From positions 208,741-272,740 of the forward strand of contig JAUJOF010000004.1 of the NCBI GenBank assembly GCA_030447785.1: a stretch of 64,000 nucleotides of DNA. Reading direction: 5' to 3'. A program made the position numbers and the translations under genes. This DNA is from Solirubrobacteraceae bacterium (GTDB taxonomy: Bacteria; Actinomycetota; Thermoleophilia; Solirubrobacterales; Solirubrobacteraceae). How positions within the stretch are numbered: the first letter of the stretch is position 1; the number at the start of each line of letters is the position of its first letter. A model generated the notes under the pieces. It saw nothing but the letters and a program-made list of their open reading frames with translations. It searched no databases and had not been told where the DNA came from. Below are positions 7,447-23,233 of the stretch, in pieces.

Positions 7447-7522
<76 letters not shown>

Positions 7523-7594
7523 CCAAGAAGGCGCTGCAAATCAGCGTCTTTTCTCGTTTCCAGGGCCCTCTCGGACGGGCCGATTCTAGAAGTG

Positions 7595-9041: not shown

Positions 9042-11645
9042 TCAGGGACCCCAGGCCACGAGGAGCTTCTTGAGCGCACTCGCGACTGCGTTGGTTGCGT
9101 CGACTTCGGGCGCCTCGTGCATGAAGTACTCGGCAATCGTGTGCGCCTCTCCGCGAAACTCGTCGTCGGGCCCGGCAACCTTGACCGCGACGTGGTCGCT
9201 GTTATGGGTGTAGGTCAGCGTGTGTACTGCGCAGCCGCGCATCTCATCTAGGCGTTCCTCGGCGTCCAGGCGCGCGTCGAGGCCACGCCAGCCGACGGTC
9301 TCGACGATCCGCTCGCTGAGGGCCGGACAGACAGCCTCGGCGAGCCCTGCGACCGCTTCCCGCTTCGCCTTGAAGTGGGCGGCGACAGCTGCCGCCAGTG
9401 GCTCGGGCTCGTCGGGAATCGGGCGCGGCCGACCAGATTGCGCCGCCCGCCGCAGCTGCTCGCGCAGGAGCTCCTGCCATGCCCGGACCACGATCCGCAG
9501 CGCGGGCGGCCGCTGTGGGTAGGCGGCAATCACGAGTGCGCGCTCGACCGCGTCCTCGAACTCCTCGACGGCCTCGCAGATGCGACCGTCCCCCTCGTGG
9601 ACCGCGACGTAGAAGCGCTGCTCGCCCGACCACTCCGTTAGCCCGAGCGGCTCGGGCAGCTGCGCCTGTGGCAGCGCAAACTCGGCCAGCAGATGCCGCA
9701 GCAGCATCTGTGCCAACTCGCGCGAGGGCTCGTGCACATCGACGTCGAGCTCGGCCGCCCGGGCGGCTGCAACGGGGTTGTCGCATAGGCGCAAGACCAG
9801 CTCGGGCGTGGCTTTCGGAGTGCCCTGAGCCACGAGGTCGGCGACCAGCTCGTAGCGCTCGTCGAGCGGCTCCGGCAGCGGCGCATGGCCGTCGATGAGG
9901 GCACGAGCAGCGAGGTAGTCGCGGAAGCCGTCGTGCAATAAGCCCAGCTGGACAGCTGCCCCACGTTCATGCACCAGGCCGATCTCGACTAGCGAAGCGA
10001 TGGCACTCTCCGCCGAAACGCCGCCGAGCTCGAAGATGCCGCTCGCGGCCAAGGCGTCGAGCGCCGCCCGCATCGAGGACCGCCACCAATACGCGTCGGC
10101 AGCGAAGCGCTCCTGGGCGACCAGCTCCAGGCAGCAGAGGCCCGCCGCGGCAAGCGCTGCGTCCGGTCGCACGACGCCGGCACGCGCCGCCAAGCCGGAG
10201 ACGAACTCGCCATAGAGCTGCTCCACAGACGCGGGGTCGCGGCCGTGGGCCAGCAGCGACAGTCCCATCCGAAACAAAAGCGGCACCTCGGTCGCGTCGC
10301 CGAGACGGTCCGCGAGCGCCCGCGCCGCCTCTGCGCCGTCCTCCATCACCGCTTCGGCCACTCGCTCGCGCGACTTCCAGTCGAGACCCCGTAGCTCGTA
10401 GATCGGGCTGTCGATCGCGCGCAACTGAGCGGTTCTACGTCCGGTGGCGATCACGCGCACGGGCCAGTCTCGGCGCAGTTCCGCCACGTCCTGCAGCAGA
10501 TCTGCCGCCTCCTCACCGGGGCGCTCGGTCACGCCGTCGAGAAGCACGACAGCGTCGCTCGACGCCAGCACGACGTCCAGGCCACGCGGTCCGATTGGCC
10601 CTTCGAGATGCGCTTCGAGCTCTTGGTGGAGCAACCGGCGGAGGCTTCCGGCGCGGTAGGCGACGAGGTCGGGCGTGATCGGCAGGAGCCCGCTCCCCGC
10701 GGCCTGGACGGCAAGTTCCTGCAGGGCCGTGCTCTTGCCCGCGCCGCCGCGGCCGACCAGCGCCGCGCCTTGGGCCTCGTCGAGCAACTCGACGACACGC
10801 TCGGCCGGCTCGGCCCGCGTCGTTTTCGCCCGCCCTTCGACGAGCAGCAGAGCCGCCTCCGGAGCAACGGGTTCCAGTCCAAGCTCGACCGCCGCGGCGT
10901 CATGCGGCTGGCCGAGCATCGTCTGCCGGTACTGTTCAGCGCGCTCACCACACCAGCCGGCCCCAGCGTCGATGCTGGCCAAGCCAACGCCGATGACCTC
11001 GGCGACCTGCGCGCGCGTCAACCGGCGTAGGTTCCGTTCCCCTTCGCCGGCGGCGGTCGCGATCAGTCGAAAGAGCCGATCGACAATCACCTGCGCGTCA
11101 TCAGCCGAGACCGGCCGGTGGCTGCCCACCAGCCGCAGCATGCGCATCTCCGCTTGAGTGAGCAGAGCCCCGAGCGGCGGGTGCTGCGCCACGACACGCA
11201 CCCGCGCAAGAAGAGCGTAGTCGTCGCCAAGGCCTCTTGTGCGTAGGTAAACCTCTTGGTCGGCGTCGAGGGCCTGACCCTCAGCCAAGCGCCGGAGCGC
11301 CATAACGAGCTTGGTCGCCGCTTGCCGGCCGAGGTGCGCGTCGGTGACGTACTCGAACTGCGCTTGCTCGCTGGCCGGCAGCTGCCGCCAGCGCCTGATC
11401 ACGTCGATGATCTCTTGGGGGCCGACCGGCGTCGCTCGCGACTTGATCTGTGCGACGCGCCGGCGAACGTCTCCGGCGCCGAGGCTCTGGAAGTCGATGA
11501 CGTCGTCATCGCCCTCGATCTCTATCCGCTCGCTGTCGGGATCGTCGAGGAGGTCGAGCGCGGCGTGCAGTGCCGCCGCATGCTGGAAGTTGAACCCACG
11601 GATTGTGTCGGGCCCGCTCATCGTCGGTCGCTGGACCCTACTCAC
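9042..11645 (-). CDS. DUF4297/Cap4-like N-terminal domain fused to a STAND/NACHT-like NTPase (Avs-like)
   Basis: N-term GFNFQHAAALHAALDLLDDPDSERIEIEGDDDVIDF...RRRVAQIKSRA (nuclease-like), Walker A ALVGRGGAGKSTAL, Walker B SDAVVLLDGV, LLHDGFRDYLAARAL STAND-like region. Confidence 0.8.
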   Translation of the reverse strand: MSRVQRPTMSGPDTIRGFNFQHAAALHAALDLLDDPDSERIEIEGDDDVIDFQSLGAGDVRRRVAQIKSRATPVGPQEIIDVIRRWRQLPASEQAQFEYVTDAHLGRQAATKLVMALRRLAEGQALDADQEVYLRTRGLGDDYALLARVRVVAQHPPLGALLTQAEMRMLRLVGSHRPVSADDAQVIVDRLFRLIATAAGEGERNLRRLTRAQVAEVIGVGLASIDAGAGWCGERAEQYRQTMLGQPHDAAAVELGLEPVAPEAALLLVEGRAKTTRAEPAERVVELLDEAQGAALVGRGGAGKSTALQELAVQAAGSGLLPITPDLVAYRAGSLRRLLHQELEAHLEGPIGPRGLDVVLASSDAVVLLDGVTERPGEEAADLLQDVAELRRDWPVRVIATGRRTAQLRAIDSPIYELRGLDWKSRERVAEAVMEDGAEAARALADRLGDATEVPLLFRMGLSLLAHGRDPASVEQLYGEFVSGLAARAGVVRPDAALAAAGLCCLELVAQERFAADAYWWRSSMRAALDALAASGIFELGGVSAESAIASLVEIGLVHERGAAVQLGLLHDGFRDYLAARALIDGHAPLPEPLDERYELVADLVAQGTPKATPELVLRLCDNPVAAARAAELDVDVHEPSRELAQMLLRHLLAEFALPQAQLPEPLGLTEWSGEQRFYVAVHEGDGRICEAVEEFEDAVERALVIAAYPQRPPALRIVVRAWQELLREQLRRAAQSGRPRPIPDEPEPLAAAVAAHFKAKREAVAGLAEAVCPALSERIVETVGWRGLDARLDAEERLDEMRGCAVHTLTYTHNSDHVAVKVAGPDDEFRGEAHTIAEYFMHEAPEVDATNAVASALKKLLVAWGP

Positions 11646-12033: not shown

Positions 12034-12279
12034 TCAAGTAATGATTCGCGTGAAGCGGTCGCGCTCGACGCGTACCGGTGCCTTCGTCTCCACCCAGAGC
12101 CTCGCGCCGCATGACAGTGGGCGGTCCGGACGGTAGACGATGTCCGAGGGACCATCGATGCTGACGCGGTCAGCGAGGACGTTCTCTCGGTATGTCTTGA
12201 CGGTTATGGGTGGCTCGCGCAGGCCATGCCGGGTGTTGCTCCGAATGACGTGCTGATTCACATGTATTCGCTTCAGCAT
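12034..12279 (-). CDS. Small conserved protein (IHVNQHVIRSN...GPSDIVYRPDRPLSCGARLWVET)
   Basis: Start overlaps the end of the HIT gene by 7 nt. The motif matches a widespread uncharacterised small-protein family known to me from recall. Confidence 0.7.
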   Translation of the reverse strand: MLKRIHVNQHVIRSNTRHGLREPPITVKTYRENVLADRVSIDGPSDIVYRPDRPLSCGARLWVETKAPVRVERDRFTRIIT

Positions 12280-12947
12280 GGGCTGATGACCGGCATCCTG
12301 GCGAACAGGTCGATGGTCGAGTGCATCCGTTCATGTGCCGGATGTGTACGCCAGTTCCATTCAGCGCCGATGGCCAGTGACTCAGCCAATACCTGCCGGA
12401 GCATCTGGGACGGGAAGCCTTTCGTTGTTGTTGCCACCAGTCGCTCTGCTGTAGGCGCTTCGTAGAGCAGGTACTCGCGCGCTGCGATGCGTTCCTGTAG
12501 CTCCTCGACGTGCGTCGGCGCAGGCTCCCAGGCCCCCATCGCGGAGATTCTGCCGATGATTGTCACGTCGGCGGGCACCAGGTGAATGTGGGCGTGATCG
12601 ATCGAGCAAGCGATGCGGTCGCCGGACAGCGAGGAGCCGTGTTCGAAACGATGGACGCCCTGGGCCGTCGTATTCGCGAGGTGCGCCTGGACCTCATCCG
12701 CCAAACGAATCACGTCGGACACCACATCGTCGTCGCCGGCAAGTGAACTCCGCAGGTGCTGCTTTGGGGACACGAGGACATGGCCGCTCGTGAGTGCTCC
12801 GATACTGGGCATGACGACGGCGTTCGCGCTTTCCGCGAGCACCGGGCGACGGAATCGCTCTTCGGGCATGAGCATCAAGACCGCATTGTGCTCCGATTCA
12901 CCGGCGATTTGGGCACAGAAGCTGCAGGGCATGGAGGCAAGTGTCAT
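12273..12947 (-). CDS. HIT-domain protein (histidine triad)
   Basis: SIDHAHIHLVP triad; N-terminal MPCSFCAQIAGE typical of HIT proteins; ATGA overlap with the upstream gene. Confidence 0.88.
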   Translation of the reverse strand: MTLASMPCSFCAQIAGESEHNAVLMLMPEERFRRPVLAESANAVVMPSIGALTSGHVLVSPKQHLRSSLAGDDDVVSDVIRLADEVQAHLANTTAQGVHRFEHGSSLSGDRIACSIDHAHIHLVPADVTIIGRISAMGAWEPAPTHVEELQERIAAREYLLYEAPTAERLVATTTKGFPSQMLRQVLAESLAIGAEWNWRTHPAHERMHSTIDLFARMPVISPC

Positions 12948-14926
12948 TGCAACGTCTCCAGATACGGATCGCTGGTCGTGTCGCGATCTTCTTCATATGC
13001 CGCGAAGGCCTCCGGCGTAACCGTAAGCGACGAGCTCATGGACTCGGCGACAATCACGGCATCGTCCCCGGCGGCCTTGGCGGTGGACCACGGAGCGCGC
13101 TCCCACAGTTTCTCGCTTGCGCGCTTGAGCTCCGAGCGGCCGAAGCGGCCGGTGCTTCGAACCAGCTGCTCGAACGCCGCCTCCGCGTGACGAGGCCGCG
13201 GTGGCTGGGGCTGGAAGGTCTCGAGGATCTTCGCTCGCGCGAACTCGTCAAGTGGCCCCACGGCCACACGGTGGTCAATCCGGCCGGGCCGCTTTACGGC
13301 AGCATCCATCATGCGTACGTGGTTCGTGCAGATGAAGAACAACACCTCCCCGCGATCGTGCAAGTCTTGCAGCTTTGGAAGCATGCTGGCGGTTACGAAG
13401 GCACTGATGTTCCGCGTGGGCTCGGTGCTGCCGGAGGGGCTGCGGTCGCGGAAGAGTTCGTCGCACTCGTCGAAGATGACGACGACACGGCGGAGCCGCT
13501 CGAGGCGGTCGAAGACGGACTGCGCCGAGGCCTCGATAGCTTCGAGGCCCTGCTCGATGAAGGTTCCGGGGCTGAGGAAGACTATCGGCCACTGCAGCGC
13601 GTCGGCGACCGCTTGCACGATCGTGGTCTTCGAGGTCCCGGGTGGTCCGAACAGCAGCACAGACGCCGTCTCGCCTCCCCCCGAGGGCAACTGCCTCGGG
13701 TGCGCGAGAATCGGGTCGACTATGCGCTTCGCGAGGTAGGCGTACACCGGCGATACAGCCTCTGGGTCGCTGTTCGGCGCGAGCTTCGACCAGCGCAGCC
13801 AGCTCGGCCAACGCGCTTCGGCGGGATGCTTGCTTCGGAACGTCTGCAGAATCTCGCGGTTCTGCATCTCGCGACGGAGCTCCTCCCCGGCAAGGAGAAA
13901 CTGCAGCGCGATGGCGGACGTCCACGACTCGATGCGCGGCTGCTGGTAGGGATGGTCGGACGCCCATCCCTGCAGGTCGTCGACGCGCAGCAAGGATCGC
14001 TCGGCGAAGGTGGCTGCGTGCCCGACAGCAGAGGTGATGCGGTTGATCGCGTCGTGGTGGGCGGAGGAGCTCCGGGTCAGGAGCTTAGGAAGCGTCACGG
14101 TGACGACCCAGGCGACCTCGTACGTCGAGATCTCCAGCCGGCTGGGTTCTGACTGCACCACACGGCCGAGCGGCCAGCTGCCGCCCTGGTCCTGGCCGGC
14201 GGCGGCCGCATCCAGCGCCGCAAGAGCCATCCGATCCTCGCGGGGCCCCTCAGCCGAGCTGAGCACGGCAGCGCAGAAAGCAAGCGCGACGGATTCGCCG
14301 GGGCTGATGAGGGACATGTGGTGCTTGGCGATTAGAACTCGGGCCTGCCGCTCGGCGGACGCCACGATGTTGGTTCTAAGCTTTTCCGCCTCTCCCTTGG
14401 CGGTTCCGTCGAGGTACGACTCGGCGGCTAAGAGAGCCCGCATGATGTGCTCCTGCACGAACGGGTGGACCGAGTCGAGCTGCGTCAGCGACAGACAAGC
14501 CGTGAGCGCCCGGACGGTGTCCGAGACCCTCGCCTTGGCGTCCTCGGCTGCGTCGAGCCCGGACTGGGCAACGCGGGCGATCGCCAGGGTGAGGAGCGCC
14601 AGCGTGAACGGCGGGTAGTTGAGATCCGACGCGTCAAGGGCCTCATGAGGTCCCGTGTCGACCACGACGCGCGCTGCCTCCTGCAGGCTCGTTCGAGCGG
14701 CTTCGTCGAACAATTCGGGGTTGCTTTGTGCTGCGCCGAGCATGACCTCAGTGCATCGAAAGGTCACGGTGGGGCGGATTTGCTCCGGGTTGTCAGTCGA
14801 GGCACGCAGGAACGTGTTGTCTCTCCAAAGCCACAGCACCCCCTTGGTGGCGGCCTGCGCGACCGCGGGTAGCTCCGCGAACGGCGGTTCCAGAGTGGTG
14901 TAGGCCGTTTGGTTCAATCCGTTCAT
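12944..14926 (-). CDS. AAA+ ATPase with a ~400-aa N-terminal domain carrying a QW-like motif (possible alpha/alpha toroid)
   Basis: Walker A LLFGPPGTSKTTIV, Walker B VVVIFDECDELF, FICTNH sensor, KRPGRID arginine finger region; N-terminal GQDQGGSWPLGRV. Confidence 0.9.
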   Translation of the reverse strand: MNGLNQTAYTTLEPPFAELPAVAQAATKGVLWLWRDNTFLRASTDNPEQIRPTVTFRCTEVMLGAAQSNPELFDEAARTSLQEAARVVVDTGPHEALDASDLNYPPFTLALLTLAIARVAQSGLDAAEDAKARVSDTVRALTACLSLTQLDSVHPFVQEHIMRALLAAESYLDGTAKGEAEKLRTNIVASAERQARVLIAKHHMSLISPGESVALAFCAAVLSSAEGPREDRMALAALDAAAAGQDQGGSWPLGRVVQSEPSRLEISTYEVAWVVTVTLPKLLTRSSSAHHDAINRITSAVGHAATFAERSLLRVDDLQGWASDHPYQQPRIESWTSAIALQFLLAGEELRREMQNREILQTFRSKHPAEARWPSWLRWSKLAPNSDPEAVSPVYAYLAKRIVDPILAHPRQLPSGGGETASVLLFGPPGTSKTTIVQAVADALQWPIVFLSPGTFIEQGLEAIEASAQSVFDRLERLRRVVVIFDECDELFRDRSPSGSTEPTRNISAFVTASMLPKLQDLHDRGEVLFFICTNHVRMMDAAVKRPGRIDHRVAVGPLDEFARAKILETFQPQPPRPRHAEAAFEQLVRSTGRFGRSELKRASEKLWERAPWSTAKAAGDDAVIVAESMSSSLTVTPEAFAAYEEDRDTTSDPYLETLQ

Positions 14927-17415
14927 GTTGGCTCCACTGCCAAGCTCAACTGTCCAACAGGCATTGGCGGCTCGACCTCCTCGACTTTTATCTCGAGGCG
15001 AGATCCGATATAGGTAAAGGTGATACGTGCGTCACCGACGCGTGTATCGTATTGCCGCAAGGGGACGGCCCTCGTAAGCGGAGGTACTAGGGGTACGCGG
15101 AAGGTCATCGCGTGGTCGTTCACGCGCTCGAACTCGACGGGGGTCTCCGTCGAAGGCGGCAGCGACCTCTCTCCCGGGGAACCCGCGCCGAAGAGCGCGG
15201 ACGCCTCACGGTCGTCAGTGACTGCAGTATCGCTGACGCCCGCCGCCTCGAGGTACGCCAGCGTCGAGAACGTGCCCCGGGCCGCCGCCTTTGCTTTGCG
15301 TGTGCTGGATACCGAGGCTTCGGAGATCCGCGCGCGTGCTTGAAGTGCTGACAAGACTTCGAAGAGGTCGGCCAGTTCATCGACGAGCCTGTCGTCGTCG
15401 GCCTGCAGCACCTCGTAGGCCTCCTCCAAGAGCTTATGACGCAGGAGCGCTCCCGCCTCAGCCTCCGTTGCGTGGAAAACCCGGACGGCCGAGCCACCGC
15501 GCCGGGCGATCGCGGGTATCTCGTCTCGTACGAGCTTGTTGTAGTCGTACCGTGGCGGGTCGGGTTCGTCTGCGCCCACCGGCACGACGGTCGCACCGGC
15601 TGATCGGAGAAGGAAAAACGGGTGACCGAGCACACTGCCTTCGAAATAGATCGGAGTGCCGGCGTCGGCAGCCTTTCGGCCCACGTGGATGAGGAAGTCG
15701 GGATCCCGCCGAACCTCGACTGCGGGCATGAGGTGGACGCCGGCAATGTCGCCGGGCAAGGACGGCGGCACGTCGTCGGGACGTGAGATGGTCATGATGC
15801 GGCGTCCCGGCACCGACCGGATCGGCGCGCCGGCCGTCGGCACCTGGTGGTCCGTGAAATGCCAGGGCATCATGGCGGAGGCTCCTCGCCGGCCGTCGAT
15901 CCGCGCGAGGACCATGAGCTGGACCTCGTGCTGAAGGTGCTCGGCCAGACGCCGGGCCCAGCTGGACGCCGTCGTTACCTCCTCTCGGTTCAGGACGTGG
16001 CCCCAGTCATACGGTTCCGGGACCGACGCGAACTGCCAGCCCGTTGCAGGCTCGTAGGTCAAGCAGGTGCCCTTGTACTCCTGGCGCTCAATCAGGCGAC
16101 CCCGAACGACGTCGTGGAACCAAGTGTCGTGTGGAAGGAGACCGATGCCGTCGGGGAAGCCCCAAAGTGCGTCGACGCGGATCCGCTGTGCGCCAGGCTT
16201 GGCATGGACCATGATGCTCGCCCGAGCCGGGATGAGGTAGGCGGGCAAGAAGGCCCAGTCGTCGTCCGACAAGCCATTCCCGGCGAACGCGGTCGCCTGA
16301 GCCCGCATGAACTCCAATGCCGCGCCGGGGTCAGTCAGTGGGTCGCTCGTCGGCAAAGAGAGCGACTCCGCTCCGCTCCCGAGGCGGACGTCGCAACGGA
16401 TGACTACGGGCCAGTCTGTTGCCAAGAGTCTGGCGAGGTCCTGACGAACGCCAAGACAACTCGCCCGCTCATCGGATCGGTAGCGGGACCCTTCAAGCAG
16501 GAAGATCGTCGCAGTGGGCATCTGGAGCGCGTCGAAAGTCACCGGTCGCCGCGACTTGCACCAGTCGCTCACCGTCGACGCCTGTACCGGCTCGATGACT
16601 CTGAGGTCAAGAACGTCGGCCCTGGGCACGTATCGGGACTCTTGGCGACCGAGGTAGGCGCTTAGGGCCTGGTTTACGACCGGCGCCAGCTCGTCGCGCT
16701 GTACGACCCACACCCGTTCACCATCCCAGACCCACTCGCACAGATAGCGCGCCGTGGGCTCGGTGAAGCGGTGCGAGACGGTGCGAAGGGCGCTTGCGAC
16801 TTCTGCTTCCGACGATGCTTCCAGCGACCTTCTTGTTGTGCCGTTGCGGCTGTCGAGGGTGTAGGGGGAGCCGAAGCGCTCACCGTACGCGTCGAGGTCT
16901 TCGCCCATCCACACGGTCCGCCGCGACGTCACCCGCCGCTCGTTCGACAGATGGCCGCCGCGGACCCGGTTGACCGAGAGCTGCGCGATCGCGCATAGGC
17001 CGTCTCTGTCAACATCCGGTTGCGAAAGGACGCTGTCGATCGCGCTGCTCAGATCGGTCCAGTCCGCTGCAGCGAGGAACGACTCGTATGCGCCTCGCCG
17101 CTGATGCGAGGCCTCGGCAGGGGCGTTCGAGCGCACGAGGATCCCGTTGCTCCAGGACGCCTCGCGGCTCCGACGCAGCAACTCATGCAGGGCGCCTTGC
17201 GCCGGGGCGGCGAGTGTGGCTAAAGCTGCCGCTGCGCTGCCGGTTTGGCGCCACAAGGCTGTGAACCACGTCGGGAGCACGACGAAGGGCGGCGTCCAAT
17301 CTCGTGGAATCGCCAAGAGGCCGACGGCCTTTCCACCGATGACCTCGGGGGAGCCGCAGGCGGAGATCCCATCCCATGACGGCAGCAGCTGTGCGTCCTC
17401 AGTCATCCCTCCCAT
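14923..17415 (-). CDS. PPDK/PEP-synthase-like ATP-binding domain + swivelling-domain-like + MazG-like NTP pyrophosphohydrolase fusion
   Basis: IGGKAVGLLAIPRDWTPPFVVLPTWF; ILVRSNAPAEASHQRRGAYESFL; RVDALWGFPDGIGLLPHDTWF; GTPIYFEGSVLGHPFFLLRSAGATVVPVG; YNKLVRDEIPAIARRGG...LLRHKLLEEAYEVLQADDDRLVDELADLFEVLSAL. Confidence 0.8.
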   Translation of the reverse strand: MGGMTEDAQLLPSWDGISACGSPEVIGGKAVGLLAIPRDWTPPFVVLPTWFTALWRQTGSAAAALATLAAPAQGALHELLRRSREASWSNGILVRSNAPAEASHQRRGAYESFLAAADWTDLSSAIDSVLSQPDVDRDGLCAIAQLSVNRVRGGHLSNERRVTSRRTVWMGEDLDAYGERFGSPYTLDSRNGTTRRSLEASSEAEVASALRTVSHRFTEPTARYLCEWVWDGERVWVVQRDELAPVVNQALSAYLGRQESRYVPRADVLDLRVIEPVQASTVSDWCKSRRPVTFDALQMPTATIFLLEGSRYRSDERASCLGVRQDLARLLATDWPVVIRCDVRLGSGAESLSLPTSDPLTDPGAALEFMRAQATAFAGNGLSDDDWAFLPAYLIPARASIMVHAKPGAQRIRVDALWGFPDGIGLLPHDTWFHDVVRGRLIERQEYKGTCLTYEPATGWQFASVPEPYDWGHVLNREEVTTASSWARRLAEHLQHEVQLMVLARIDGRRGASAMMPWHFTDHQVPTAGAPIRSVPGRRIMTISRPDDVPPSLPGDIAGVHLMPAVEVRRDPDFLIHVGRKAADAGTPIYFEGSVLGHPFFLLRSAGATVVPVGADEPDPPRYDYNKLVRDEIPAIARRGGSAVRVFHATEAEAGALLRHKLLEEAYEVLQADDDRLVDELADLFEVLSALQARARISEASVSSTRKAKAAARGTFSTLAYLEAAGVSDTAVTDDREASALFGAGSPGERSLPPSTETPVEFERVNDHAMTFRVPLVPPLTRAVPLRQYDTRVGDARITFTYIGSRLEIKVEEVEPPMPVGQLSLAVEPT

Positions 17416-17899
17416 AATGCATCAGCGACCGGCACCTACCCAGCTTTTTTCGGGTGCTCGGGACGCTGGCGCGCCTTCGAGCGTACCGCCGTCGAAGACT
17501 GCTGGCTGCGCCGCCCGTGACCGTAGCGGCCCGTCCCCAGGTTCGTGCTCCGCTCAGAATTTCTGACTACGACGAGGCGCCAAGCACCCAACACGGGCTT
17601 GTGCTTTCGCGTGGACGTGAGCGTGTCAGCGATCACGCCCGATAGGAGGAGCAAAACGACAGCCGGCGTCGGGAACTCCCTGCCGGAGGCTGCCAAGAGC
17701 CGCGTCCTCTCCCTCATGCCCCCATTCAATGACGCATTCAACGGTCGCGCGGGGCGGCTGCCGCTCGGCCCCGCTCCTGAGCCGGTTTTGCCGTCCTCCG
17801 CGTTCCCGACCACCCGCCCCCACCATGTACTTCGTAGCGATGGCGAGGTCGGGTGGTCGGGAACACTCCGGAGGCAGGGTCAGGACGGGGCCGAGCGGC

Positions 17900-18788
17900 A
17901 GCCGAGGCATGTGGGTGGAGGGACAGAGGAGGGCACTGAGGGCAAGGATCTGGCGGGGGCCGGAGAGCGGCTGGCGGATCGGGTCGCGCCGGGCGATGTG
18001 GGGCGGCCGAGGTGGCAGGTCGAGGAGGCGGCGAAGGACGAGGCGGTGCTGCGGTGGGTCGAGCGGTTCAGGTTCGTCACGGGGGAGTTGGTGGCGGTGA
18101 GGTTCGGGATCTCATGGCAGCGGGCGAACGCGAGGTTGCGGCGGCTGGAGCGGATGGGGCTCGTGGCCGGCGAGCAGCAGCACGTGTGTGAGGCGCGCGC
18201 CGTGTTCATCACCGGGCGGGGTGCGACGGTGCTGGGTGTCGGGCGGCGGCGTGCGCCGCGGCCGAGCGTCCAACGCGAGCACGTGCTGGCGATCGTGGCC
18301 CTGGTTGGCGCTTTGGAACGCAATCGCTCGGACGTCGAGGTGCTCACCGAGCGCCAGTGCCGGCGGCGTGAGCGGGCAGGGCACGGCGAGTACAGCATCA
18401 AGGGCAACGACGGCGGCCGACACGAACGCGGGCACTGGCCCGATGCGGCCATCGAGCTGCCGTGGGGCGCGCGCGTGGCCATCGAGGTCGAGCTGTCGGC
18501 CAAGGCACCCGAGCGCCTGCGTCGCCTCGTCGAAGCGCACGTGACCCCATCGACGTACACCAGCGTGCCTACCTGGTCCGCGAGACGGCCCTTGCGCGGC
18601 GCGTCCGGGTGATCGCTGACCAGACCGGCGAGCAGCTTGCATGGAGGGAAAACGAGACGACGCAGCTTGTCGTCGAGCCGCTGCCCGGGGTCTCCCCAGA
18701 CATCGCCGAGCGCATCCATGTGATCGCGCGCGAGCAGGGTGTGACCGACGCAGAGACCCGGACGACCACCAGCGCCACGTCCTGGTGA
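17900..18788 (+). CDS. Replication-relaxation-like protein, frameshifted near 18535; 5' end uncertain
   Basis: DEAVLRWVERFRFVTGELVAVRFGISWQRANARLRRLERMGLV...HWPDAAIELPWGARVAIEVELSAKAPERLRRLVEAH, then YLVRETALARRVRVIADQTG in another frame. Confidence 0.65.
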
Positions 18789-19015
18789 TCGTGGAGGTGA
18801 CCGAACCCCTCGCACCCTGGGGAGGCCGTGCGCTGACGCGCGAGGACATTCTCGACGCCGGCCAGGTCGTCCAGCTGCTCGGTGTCCGGCGCTCGACCGT
18901 CGAGGACTGGGGTCGTCGCGGGGAGCTTCCGTGTGTTCGTCTGGGCAAGCACCGCCGCTTCCTGCGCGCCGACGTCGAAGCCTCGGTGGTCGGTCGGCGC
19001 GGGCCGGCGGCGTAG
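18785..19015 (+). CDS. Excisionase-like helix-turn-helix protein
   Basis: EDILDAGQVVQLLGVRRSTVEDWGRRGELPCVRLGKHRRFLRADVEA. Confidence 0.8.
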   Translation: MIVEVTEPLAPWGGRALTREDILDAGQVVQLLGVRRSTVEDWGRRGELPCVRLGKHRRFLRADVEASVVGRRGPAA

Positions 19016-19132: not shown

Positions 19133-19434
19133 ATGTTCGAAAGCGTCAGGCGCTACCGCTTGATCGAGGGGTCGCTGGGCGACCTCAAGCAGCGCATTGA
19201 CGAGGGTTCGCCGAACAGATCCGCGCCCAGCCCGGCTTCTGTTCGTACCACTTCCTGGACTGTGGCGAGGAGATCGTCATGACGCTGAGCATGTTCGCCC
19301 ATGCCCATGAGGCCGAGGCATCGCGCGAGCTGGCCCAGCGCTGGAACGACGAGAACCTCCAGGACCTCCGCTTTACGCGGCTCGAGTCATTCGGTGGCGA
19401 GGTCCTCGTGAGCTGCGTCGCAGAACCCGGTTAG
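19133..19434 (+). pseudogene. ~100-aa protein (EthD/ABM-barrel-like), single-nt frameshift at about 19208
   Basis: MFESVRRYRLIEGSLGDLKQRIDEG | FAEQIRAQPGFCSYHFLDCGEEIVMTLSMFAHAHEAEASRELAQRWNDENLQDLRFTRLESFGGEVLVSCVAEPG; one T restores the frame. Confidence 0.55.
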
Positions 19435-19465
19435 GCAGCTCCGCGCCGAGCTGGTAGCCGAGCGT
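19356..19465 (+). repeat. Left copy of ~110-bp imperfect direct repeat
   Basis: Aligns at offset 2220 to 21576-21685 with a few substitutions. Confidence 0.85.
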
Positions 19466-19558: not shown

Positions 19559-20398
19559 TCAGAGGAGCAGGGCGCGGAAGAAGCGCTCGACGACATCGAC
19601 GGCGTCGGCCCGCAACGTCGCCGGGTCGAGCTCGGGATCGACTTGGAGCGATTGCTCCGCATAGGAGGTCGGGCCGATGTCGTTCGGACGGACGTAGCGC
19701 TCCCGGACCTCGAGGGAGATGCTGCGAAGGGCGGGCAGCGCGTCCGACAGCGCGCTCTCGCGGAGCTGCGCCGCAGCCCCTTCCGGGCCGCCCGCGCGAT
19801 TGTGGAGGAGCACGAACGCGAAGTCGTAGTAGTCCTTCTCAAGCCCGCGCGTTCGGACGGCGACGCATTTGGAGAGGAGATAGCCCTTCAGGCCGGCGAA
19901 ACGAACTCGCACCCGCACCTCGCCGCCATCAGGAGCCGTTGCGCTGAGTTCTTCCCACGCCCAATCGCGTGCCACGTATCCGGTGCCCCGCAAGTTCACC
20001 GCCGCCAGCTCGGCACAGCCGGTGGGACTGATGACCTGTCCCTCGGGCCGGTCCTCGAGATCACACAGGAACTCGACCTTGACGGGCCGGCCGTCGATTC
20101 GCCCACGCCAGCGCCATGCCTCACTAAGAGGCTTGAATCCGAGTCGCTTCAGCGCGCGCTCCACGGCGCCGAGATCCGTATCCGCGTCAAGGTGCGTGAT
20201 CAGGAGAACGTCGACGTCGGTGGTCCCGAGGTGCTGAGGAATGACTGCGCCCTCGTACCGCGTCAGCACTTCAGGCACGAGCCCCCCGAGGACGATCAGC
20301 GGGACGTTCTCGTCTCCTACCTCGTTGACCAGGAGAACGAGGGCGCGCTCGGCGCGTGCGCGCGTCTCAGCGCTGCGAGCTTCGTCCGTGTCGCTCAC
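19559..20398 (-). CDS. Nucleotidyltransferase-like protein (AbiEii-like)
   Basis: PLIVLGGLVPEVLTRYEG...HLGTTDVDVLL...VKVEFLCDL...LKGYLLSKCVAVRTRGLEKDYYDFAFVL; ATGA overlap with upstream gene. Confidence 0.72.
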   Translation of the reverse strand: MSDTDEARSAETRARAERALVLLVNEVGDENVPLIVLGGLVPEVLTRYEGAVIPQHLGTTDVDVLLITHLDADTDLGAVERALKRLGFKPLSEAWRWRGRIDGRPVKVEFLCDLEDRPEGQVISPTGCAELAAVNLRGTGYVARDWAWEELSATAPDGGEVRVRVRFAGLKGYLLSKCVAVRTRGLEKDYYDFAFVLLHNRAGGPEGAAAQLRESALSDALPALRSISLEVRERYVRPNDIGPTSYAEQSLQVDPELDPATLRADAVDVVERFFRALLL

Positions 20399-21489
20399 GG
20401 CGCTTGCGCGACCAGCTCATCTGCCTCCCGACGGACGCGCTCGTGAAGTGGATCGATCAGCTCGCTCTTGATGTGCTCTGCGGCGTCGTGACCTCGCCCA
20501 CCCAACGCCGTGAGGTCCGCGTAGAGCCGTGGAGGGCTTACAACGGGGAGCCCGCCGTCCCGATCTGCGAGCGCGAGCACCCGCTCGTCCGCTGCCCAAA
20601 AGACGACACGCGCACCGTCCTCGACCTCGCGCACGCCTGCAGTCTCCATGGCTTCCGAGAGCGGGCCCGCGAACTGGTCCTCAGCGACGTAAATTTGAAG
20701 GCTTGGGACAGCTGTCATGAACGGAGCCCTCACCTCGGCGCCGGCCCAGCCGCTCAGGCCCCACTTCGTCCCCTTCTCGAGAGCCGGCGCCAGGGCGTCG
20801 TGCAGAAGGATCATCGCGTCGCGCGTCGCGCGGTGACCCAGCCGCCGCTTGCGCGGCTCCTCCGCGACTGCCGCCGACCAGGCGGAGAGCAGGCCGTCAG
20901 ACTCGGCCAAGATGCGCCAGGCACGCGGTCCGCGCTGAGCGCCGAGCTTCCGCGTCCAGCCGGCGCGGTCGAACCCCGCCAGCACGGTGCTGATCTGAGC
21001 CTGCGACCATCCGCACTCGCGGGCGAGATGGCCCACCTGGATCCGCGGTCGTGGATGGGCGAGCAAGAGCTCACCCACCGAGCGCGCGGAGGAGGACCAG
21101 TGAAATGGCCGTGGCGTGCGTTCGAGCTGTCGATCAAGCTCCCGGATCACGACCAGGCCACCCGGGCCGACGATCCGCGCGCGTCCTGTTTCGTCGGCCC
21201 AGTTCGCCTCGTGCGCGGCTAGCCATTCCAGAGCACCAGGAGAGAACTGCCTAGCCACGAGCACGAGGTTCTCTGGCCATGGCTCGGGCAACTGCGAAAC
21301 GAGCCTCCGCACATCACCGGGCCAGCCCTCTCCTACCCACTTAACTTCAAGCGCGATGGGAGCGCTGGCGCCGCGAGGCTGGACCAGCATGTCCCATTCT
21401 TGCGCCCCTGCCGCACGCTCGACGAGGGCACCGTCCAGCGCACGCGCGACAATCGCCTCGGCCTTGTTCGCTGATGGCGCGTTATTCAC
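20395..21489 (-). CDS. AbiEi-like regulator/antitoxin with nuclease-like N-terminal domain
   Basis: N-term EWDMLVQP...APIALEVKWVGEGW (D...ExK-like); C-term PVVSPPRLYADLTALGGRGHDAAEHIKSEL. Confidence 0.65.
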   Translation of the reverse strand: MNNAPSANKAEAIVARALDGALVERAAGAQEWDMLVQPRGASAPIALEVKWVGEGWPGDVRRLVSQLPEPWPENLVLVARQFSPGALEWLAAHEANWADETGRARIVGPGGLVVIRELDRQLERTPRPFHWSSSARSVGELLLAHPRPRIQVGHLARECGWSQAQISTVLAGFDRAGWTRKLGAQRGPRAWRILAESDGLLSAWSAAVAEEPRKRRLGHRATRDAMILLHDALAPALEKGTKWGLSGWAGAEVRAPFMTAVPSLQIYVAEDQFAGPLSEAMETAGVREVEDGARVVFWAADERVLALADRDGGLPVVSPPRLYADLTALGGRGHDAAEHIKSELIDPLHERVRREADELVAQAP

Positions 21490-21575
21490 TCGAATTGCAA
21501 ATTAGCCGTCTAGGCCGAAAAAGGCAAGCTCACGCACGACCGGTTCAGTCCGTGGAACTGCCGAACGCGCCCTGA

Positions 21576-21685
21576 CCTGCAGGACCTCCGCTTTACGCGG
21601 CTGGAGTCATTGGGTGGCGAGGTCCTCGTGAGCCGCGTCGCAGAACCCGGTTAGGCAACTCAGCGCCGAGCTCGTAGCCGAGCGT
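21576..21685 (+). repeat. Right copy of ~110-bp imperfect direct repeat
   Basis: Matches 19356-19465: 3' end of the EthD-like gene plus adjoining sequence. Confidence 0.85.
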
Positions 21686-23030
21686 GACGCGACGGCGCGG
21701 CGTCGGGTGGCGCTCACGGCTGGACGGGCTCGGCTGCTCGTCGAGCTCGCCCATGCTCCCGGTGAACGCGCGATCCAGCCGCGCGACGTCGGAGTGGCGC
21801 GGCTTGGCGTGCAGGTAGCGCTCGGTGGTCGTCAGCTTCGCGTGGCCCATCCAGGCCTTGAGCGTCGCGGTGTCGACCTCGCGGACGACGAGCGAGCCGA
21901 AGGAGTGGCGCAGGTCGTGGAACCGCAGCCGGCGCAGGCCGGCCGCCTCCTGCGCGCGGCGGTAGCGCCGGCGCAATGCCGAGGGATCCAACGGCCCGCC
22001 GAGCGCGCTGCAGAACACGATGTCGTCGTCGGCCACAAACCGCCCACGCTCGGCCAGGCGGGCCAGCTCGGCTGCGGCCGGCGTGGCCAGCGGGACCGTG
22101 CGGACATGCCGGGACTTGGGCGCCGTGAGGTGGCCGGCCGACCACGACGCCGCGACGGTCAGCGTCCCGCGCTCGAAGCTCACGTGACGCCAGCGCAGCG
22201 CCAGCACCTCGCCGAGGCGCAGGCCGGTGAAGGCCGCGACCGTGAACAGGGCCGCGTCCTGCTCGTCGGCCAGGCGCCGCTCGCGGGCCTCGGCCTCCGA
22301 CACCGCCGGGCGGCGCGGATCGCGGTGGCGGCCCTCGTGGGCCGCGCGAGCCAGCGCGGCAACCTCCTCGGGCTCGTAGAAGTCCAGGGCGCCGGGTGAG
22401 GCCTCGCGTCGCTTGGCGCTCGCACGCGCAACGTTCGCGGTAATCCCGTAGCGCTGCGGCCGCCGGGCGGCGTACTCGAGCACCGAGCAGACGATCTGGC
22501 GGTGCTTGTTGATGGTGCGCTTGGATACCGCCTCGAAATCCATGCCCTCGAGCCAGCGCTCGACCTGCTCGGTGGTGATGTCGCGGAGGGCCTGGCCGCC
22601 GAACTCGCGCATCACACGGGCGCGGGCGCGGCTGCGACCCCGCTTGCGCGGCCGTGCGTCGGGCATGGCAAGCGTGTAGCGGTAGTCGGCAAGCGTGGAG
22701 GGCTTGGTGCCCTCGACGTGCTCGAGGTGGTGACGCCAGTCCGCGGCCGCCGCCTCGAGGTCACGCCCCGCGCGAGCTGAGGTTTCCCCAGTGCTGCCTC
22801 GTGCTCCTCGATGGCCCGGCGCATCTCGACGATCGCCGTCTTCTCGTCGAGGAAGCCCTCGCGCGGGCGCCCGCGCCGTCTGCGCCGAGCGTCGCCGTCG
22901 CGCTCCACCCAGGCCGGCCCCAGACGGCGCTTGACCTGGCGCCGCCCGGAGTCGGCCACTTGGCCTCGTAGAAGGGCCGGCCGCGACCCTCGCGAACGAC
23001 CAGGGCACCCGTCGGAACGATGTCTCCCAT
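21593..23030 (-). CDS. int: Tyrosine recombinase / integrase; N-terminal region split over frames
   Basis: TGLRLGEVLALRW, FHDLRHSFGSLVV, MGHAKLTTTERYLHAK catalytic motifs. N-term MGDIVPTGALVVREGRGRPFYEAKW and REGFLDEKTAIVEMRRAIEEHEAAL read in other frames. Confidence 0.88.
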
Positions 23031-23064
23031 CGGCGGACGATGCTACCCGGCGCCGGCAGCTTTG

Positions 23065-23112
23065 GGTACCACATTGGGTACCAAACCAACCCGAGGCAAC
23101 CTTAGGTACCAC
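23065..23112 (+). promoter_or_regulatory. Candidate integrase arm-type sites, right end
   Basis: GGTACCAC at 23065 and 23105, GGTACCAA at 23077. Confidence 0.6.
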
Positions 23113-23165: not shown

Positions 23166-23213
23166 CGGCCTGTCACGCCGGAGGTCGCGGGTTCGAGTCC
23201 CGTCGCTCCCGCT
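23166..23213 (+). repeat. attR: 48-bp direct repeat of tRNA-Asp 3' part
   Basis: Identical to 7475-7522. Confidence 0.95.
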
Positions 23214-23233
23214 ACACAGCTCTTGTTCTCGCT

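Follow-up and report, generated by a model that had tools for sequence, protein, structure and literature searches.

A four-gene cassette with an AAA+/HIT core on a solirubrobacterial integrative element, probably a mobile anti-phage conflict system

The 64,000-nucleotide stretch of contig JAUJOF010000004.1 analysed here (the window) comes from a soil-type actinobacterium of the family Solirubrobacteraceae and carries, between positions 12034 and 17415, a cassette of four minus-strand genes designated A, B, C and D. Open reading frame (ORF) calling reproduced exactly the coordinates and overlaps given for them in an initial annotation made from the sequence alone: the tetranucleotide ATGA is common to the A/B and to the B/C junctions, and C and D overlap by 7 nt. 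Homologues of A, B and C (32-35% identity) and of D (68-70%) were clustered in two further Solirubrobacteraceae genomes, indicating that all four are real genes; in one of these (locus L022) A, B and C are co-directional and D lies nearby on the opposite strand, and in the other (L021) C is transcribed divergently from A, with B ~3.4 kb away. The genes and their domains are the following, with lengths in amino acids (aa).

14923-17415, minus strand: gene A (830 aa), two PPDK_N-like ATP-grasp domains, a swivel-like segment and a MazG/nucleoside triphosphate (NTP) pyrophosphohydrolase domain
16666-17373, minus strand: A domain 1, residues 15-250, PPDK_N-like (hhalign probability 83.6, E 8e-6; pairwise, not database-calibrated)
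15811-16653, minus strand: A domain 2, residues 255-535, PPDK_N-like (hhalign probability 95.3, E 2e-8; likewise pairwise)
15571-15738, minus strand: A residues 560-615, GSxLGH segment with H598, invariant in four homologues
15256-15543, minus strand: A residues 625-720, MazG/NTP pyrophosphohydrolase domain (Pfam PRA-PH, sequence identity and motifs, see below)
12944-14926, minus strand: gene B (660 aa), helical N-terminus with a QW motif and classical AAA+ ATPase
13832-14884, minus strand: B N-terminal all-helical domain, residues 15-365, probable alpha/alpha toroid (AlphaFold pLDDT mostly 80-95)
13127-13714, minus strand: B AAA+ domain, residues 405-600 (Walker A 427, Walker B 481, sensor 1 533, RPGR 546, pore loop F456)
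12273-12947, minus strand: gene C (224 aa), HIT hydrolase with a CwfJ-like C-terminal extension (HAHIH 118, QxxR 181, WNWR 197)
12034-12279, minus strand: gene D (81 aa), member of the phage protein family phrog_8676 (1.9e-17)

The B product belongs to the classical AAA+ clade (Cdc48/AFG2/Rix7/FtsH), with a Pfam AAA match of 9.6e-21 and with Walker A and B, sensor 1, the arginine finger (RPGR) and the invariant aromatic pore-loop residue Phe456 all retained. It had been described initially as a toroid-like/AAA+ ATPase, and the AAA+ half of that description was confirmed. The toroid half stood less firmly: the N-terminus was modelled as helical and had no toroid match in Pfam, and its profile retrieved squalene-hopene cyclases as the top PDB matches, at the QW motif, with a non-significant E value of 0.14, so that an alpha/alpha toroid fold is likely rather than proven. 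Matches of B to IetA, TRIP13 and FtsH were rejected as generic to AAA proteins, and no relatives of B were found in IMG/VR.

For C, the proposed HIT identity was upheld by Pfam (HIT, 8.9e-6), by the H-x-H-x-H motif HAHIH and by PDB profile matches, the closest of which were HINT and CWF19/CwfJ. Pfam CwfJ_C_1 scored just above its cut-off, and the C-terminal QxxR...WxWR region aligned with CWF19L1 (E 7e-9). A tblastn search of C against a phage collection returned nothing, phrog_23000 matched C over its full length, and one IMG/VR contig carried a C-type HIT gene. By eye, a full-length C-type HIT gene on phage contig L185 (6004-7894) lies close to a DNA ligase-like gene, which suggests an aprataxin-like role there. 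Elsewhere, C-type HIT genes adjoin a cysteine desulfurase and sugar/nucleotide genes (L034 4173-12329 and L033 8441-11737), in surroundings resembling a nucleoside-type biosynthetic cluster.

The PPDK/phosphoenolpyruvate (PEP)-synthase-type ATP-binding domain attributed to A had no match in a Pfam scan and was recovered, in two copies, by profile-profile alignment (hhalign) against 19 PPDK_N proteins gathered in this analysis; unrelated control profiles gave a probability of 0.1. In domain 1, K29, R95, E227 and Q239, which we take to be equivalent to the ATP-site residues of PPDK, are invariant in four homologues, one of them from a Caulobacter plasmid. No such residue set was evident by eye in domain 2, which is possibly a degenerate PPDK_N-like domain. 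H598, within the GSxLGH segment, looks like a candidate phosphohistidine site, and the profile match of this segment to the PEP-utiliser mobile domain was not significant (probability 0.1). The MazG-like assignment also held: the Pfam PRA-PH match was weak (0.0015), the domain is 43-44% identical to annotated NTP pyrophosphohydrolases, and the EExxE and ExxD metal-site motifs are kept as EEAYE (664) and ELAD (680). Beyond the MazG domain the C-terminus holds a further segment, and no PEP/pyruvate-binding C-terminal domain was found in A. A search of IMG/VR yielded no relatives of A, and one match in another genome (G150) reads as an ordinary PPDK_N enzyme.

We found that homologues of B reaching well past the AAA core were present in only 3 of 101 related genomes, the window's own included, and that in both of the others the counterparts of all four cassette genes are clustered. 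A wider search, covering 84,980 species genomes and plasmids, located B homologues in Armatimonadetes, Mycobacterium, Bacteroidales, Pyrinomonadaceae, Myxococcales and one deltaproteobacterium. Among the ten B loci counted (window, L021, L022, L029, L035, L038, L039, L040, L041 and L042), a C-type HIT gene accompanied B in nine, the exception being L041, and in eight loci the two genes overlap, abut or stand no more than ~22 bp apart. This co-occurrence shows that the conserved core is B plus HIT, usually as a coupled pair. The expectation that the genes would keep company in other genomes was thus borne out across several phyla; the four-gene unit was not, since what is conserved is the pair, and A and D are lineage-specific additions to it. 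The pair is rare and patchily distributed, with 1 of 149 Bacteroidales and 1 of 151 mycobacterial-family genomes carrying it in addition to the 3 of 101 relatives.

The enzymes that accompany the core vary across loci and all act on nucleotides: MazG, ThyX, DUF4406 and PPDK-like proteins. A MazG-type gene or domain occurs with HIT in four lineages (window, L029, L032 and L040), and it is contained in the A proteins of the window and of Caulobacter and absent from those of L021 and L022; MazG is therefore an optional part, fused to A in the window, encoded separately elsewhere and missing in two close relatives. Two Bacteroidales loci add a two-domain ThyX, in the order ThyX-B-HIT(-MazG)-DHFR (L029 6613-11899 and L039 400-5374). 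Of 99 Bacteroidales genomes, just the one that carries B-HIT (L039) had a ThyX of this type, and ThyA is encoded there too; ThyX therefore appears to travel with the cassette, and the idea that it is a resident Bacteroidales gene was rejected. In a divergent rhizobial branch a B homologue occurs with a PPDK-like protein and a DUF4406 enzyme, as individual genes or as a fusion, a set that looks like a sister system. On the rhizobial plasmids (L030 6933-11151 and L031 6924-11197) the PPDK-like protein has a TSH motif, and the genes are fused in one strain. Taken together with the overlaps and domain matches in the window, the proposal of a translationally coupled cassette of nucleotide-handling enzymes was well founded.

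Gene D had been noted as a small conserved protein, which is correct as far as conservation goes and is now refined by its membership of phrog_8676. This family occurred in 240 IMG/VR contigs (54-66% identity among the 80 listed) and in named phages, commonly with small genes around it or replication genes close by, and outside A-B-C loci it is seen almost only in phages. Its members (L046-L125) are strikingly conserved for a small phage protein. In chromosomes D is rare: among 61 relatives it was present in three, exactly those with A-B-C, a coincidence of 1 in 35,990 if D were placed at random and kinship is ignored. A search of 395 other Actinomycetota gave a single weak match (33%), and D was not found on plasmids or in the more distant B+C loci. 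The D tree included two chromosomal copies, those of the window and L022; they grouped with support of 94/85 but on long branches, so the tree did not discriminate for or against separate capture from different phages. In one genome (G009) a contig break splits the D homologue between L025 and L026.

A 51-bp tRNA-Asp repeat flanks the cassette and a tyrosine integrase gene adjoins the second repeat copy, which makes the cassette part of the cargo of a 15.7-kb integrative element. No empty site was found for the element boundaries; the flanking sigma-factor homologue loci that were compared, the window's own included, held no tRNA. The remaining features of the element are these.

7475-7525, plus strand: attL, 3' part of the tRNA-Asp gene (7447-7521) plus flank, 51-bp direct repeat (98%)
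23166-23216, plus strand: attR, copy of the tRNA-Asp 3' end, 51-bp direct repeat (98%)
21593-23089, minus strand: tyrosine integrase (Pfam Phage_integrase 9.7e-28)
17545-18612, plus strand: MobC/replication-relaxation-like protein, start uncertain (NCBIfam MobC_subf 7.4e-9, under its cut-off; Pfam 8e-4)
18641-19015, plus strand: HTH_17/excisionase-like regulator (Pfam 1.5e-10; phrog_66 6.7e-8)
9042-11645, minus strand: neighbouring cargo gene, Cap4/LmuA-like N-terminus and P-loop NTPase (PADLOC LmuA 3.5e-7; Pfam Cap4_nuclease 9.7e-4)
19559-21489, minus strand: AbiE-type toxin-antitoxin candidate pair (AbiEi_2 at 20395-21489, Pfam AbiEi_2 4.3e-6; coupled ORF at 19559-20398)

The Cap4/LmuA-like gene is a separate candidate defence gene; the Caulobacter A+HIT locus (L032) likewise adjoins a gene for a large nSTAND3 protein. 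The second ORF of the AbiE-type pair had no match in a Pfam scan, and the pair is flanked by a 111-nt direct repeat (94% identical, 19355-19465 and 21575-21685), possibly an internal gene-cassette boundary.

In other lineages the neighbours of the B loci included PglZ (5.5e-81) and BrxL (3.6e-216) in L022, DndB and DndC in L038, Orf5/HEC-06 and a DndB-like protein in L041, a ThsA/Dsr2-type SIR2 protein in L021, an ORC-CDC6-like protein in L042 and an integrase in L035. The initial reading as a conflict system is supported by this mobile, defence-island setting, seen in the att repeats and integrase of the window and in the BREX, Dnd and SIR2 genes near its relatives.

Because the AAA+/HIT pair recurs with nucleotide enzymes in several phyla, often beside anti-phage systems, the cassette is probably an undescribed defence system. 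Reading from sequence, we put at about 60% the probability that it is a conflict system that spreads horizontally and whose effectors act on nucleotides, most likely directed against phages. Carriage on an integrative element with other defence-like cargo, the patchy distribution, the PPDK_N homology of A and the known link of MazG and thymidylate-synthase domains to defence elsewhere (PMC13092281) also count in favour. Anti-phage defence, AAA-dependent activation, nucleotide targets and a role for D are all points that we infer, as are the nucleotide signalling, adenylylation or NTP depletion put forward in the initial annotation. The N-terminal domain of B would detect a product of infection, and its AAA+ ring, with Walker A/B, arginine finger and pore-loop Phe kept, would then remodel a target and license the attached nucleotide enzymes. 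HIT and MazG (ThyX or the DUF4406 enzyme in other lineages) would hydrolyse or otherwise change nucleotides made or required by the phage, and the PPDK-like ATP-grasp protein A might add an ATP-dependent phosphotransfer step in the window lineage. D, from a family common to phages, could serve as decoy, trigger or immunity component, this being the least certain step. Several observations weigh against such a reading. L041 has B without HIT and the Caulobacter locus L032 has A and HIT without B; the trio of L040 (Pyrinomonadaceae) sits amid housekeeping genes, the Bacteroidales sets adjoin DHFR in ordinary surroundings, and C-type HIT genes also occur in the biosynthetic-looking clusters L033 and L034. 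Adjacency to defence genes was scored as a raw neighbour listing without a random-locus baseline, and the AlphaFold model of A, built from three sequences, reached a pLDDT of 43, too poor for a structure search.

The clusters with cysteine desulfurase and biosynthesis-like genes would suit a mobile detoxification or immunity module against nucleotide-type antibiotics. In such a module HIT would act as MccH does on processed microcin C, breaking a phosphoramide or nucleotidyl bond; toxic nucleotides would be sanitised by MazG together with the kinase-like protein, and the AAA+ protein would recycle poisoned targets. HIT hydrolases of the MccH clade confer microcin C resistance (PMC7157772), and every partner in the cassette is a nucleotide enzyme; however, the vicinity of A-B-C showed no genes for making or transporting peptide-nucleotides, and the BREX, Dnd, SIR2 and Cap4-like neighbours speak for something else, which makes this explanation unlikely. 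An accessory module for nucleotide-pool maintenance or repair, with no conflict role, would have HIT as an aprataxin-like deadenylase, MazG as a house-cleaning NTPase and ThyX/DHFR supplying thymidylate (dTMP). It draws on the gene order of the two Bacteroidales loci, on the housekeeping surroundings of L040 and on the ligase-like neighbour of the phage HIT gene, but the very patchy distribution, a ThyX additional to the resident ThyA and the carriage of the cassette on an integrative element leave it improbable.

We consider it still less probable that the cassette provides exclusion or competition encoded by the element against plasmids, integrative and conjugative elements or phage satellites rather than against phages. 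The element that carries it is indeed mobile and has MobC-like and AbiE-type genes, and D belongs to a phage family, yet established anti-phage systems are among the neighbours in other lineages and the surroundings of the cassette differ from lineage to lineage. Within the anti-phage reading itself, the boldest form is doubtful: an undescribed immune system, present in several phyla, that would combine a toroid-AAA+/HIT pair with exchangeable nucleotide enzymes and whose solirubrobacterial branch would have captured D, a conserved phage protein, as bait or trigger. If anti-phage defence is correct, the nucleotide-acting class of immunity would gain a system thinly spread over several phyla, a CwfJ-type HIT hydrolase and a PPDK-like enzyme would be tied to prokaryotic immunity, and the retention of a phage-family protein within a probable defence operon could be tested directly.

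As the initial annotation had supposed, the cassette matched no named defence system: no PADLOC (2023 copy), Pfam or NCBIfam model names it, and no description was found in the literature searched. Its novelty is provisional, since the PADLOC copy dates from 2023 and most preprints and subscription papers lay outside the search. BREX and Dnd components (PglZ/BrxL, DndBCD) were not matched in the window cassette or its scanned neighbours and occur only as neighbours in L022, L038 and L041. The anti-phage AAA ATPase system IetAS/IteA likewise places an AAA+ protein in a small defence-type operon, and IetA was the best PADLOC model for B (7e-14); however, IetA NF042959 scored 36 bits against a 510-bit cut-off, over the AAA core only, B differs in its N-terminus and in being paired with HIT, and Pfam-scanned neighbouring ORFs (some small ORFs lay outside the scan) held no Peptidase_S8 match to indicate an IetS subtilase. 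Among nucleotide-modifying candidate systems (MazG, thymidylate synthase, NMAD), the sections examined of the DefensePredictor study count MazG and thymidylate-synthase domains among those with a predicted or validated defence role (PMC13092281); these systems resemble the cassette in placing nucleotide-metabolism domains in defence islands, whereas no AAA+/HIT core or PPDK-like/MazG fusion is described in those sections, so that the listing fits the cassette and does not identify it. The MccH microcin C phosphoramidases are also bacterial HIT hydrolases with a conflict role, but no mcc-like genes were seen near the cassette. A resembles PPDK, PEP synthase and rifampin phosphotransferase in its two PPDK_N-like domains, the first with Lys, Arg, Glu and Gln kept, and departs from them in having neither a Pfam-level match nor the canonical TSH swivel, in its fusion to MazG and in its apparent lack of the C-terminal PEP/pyruvate domain. 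Finally, C shares HAHIH and the QxxR...WxWR extension with the HINT and CWF19L1/Drn1 (CwfJ) proteins, from which it differs in being bacterial and operon-linked to an AAA+ ATPase.

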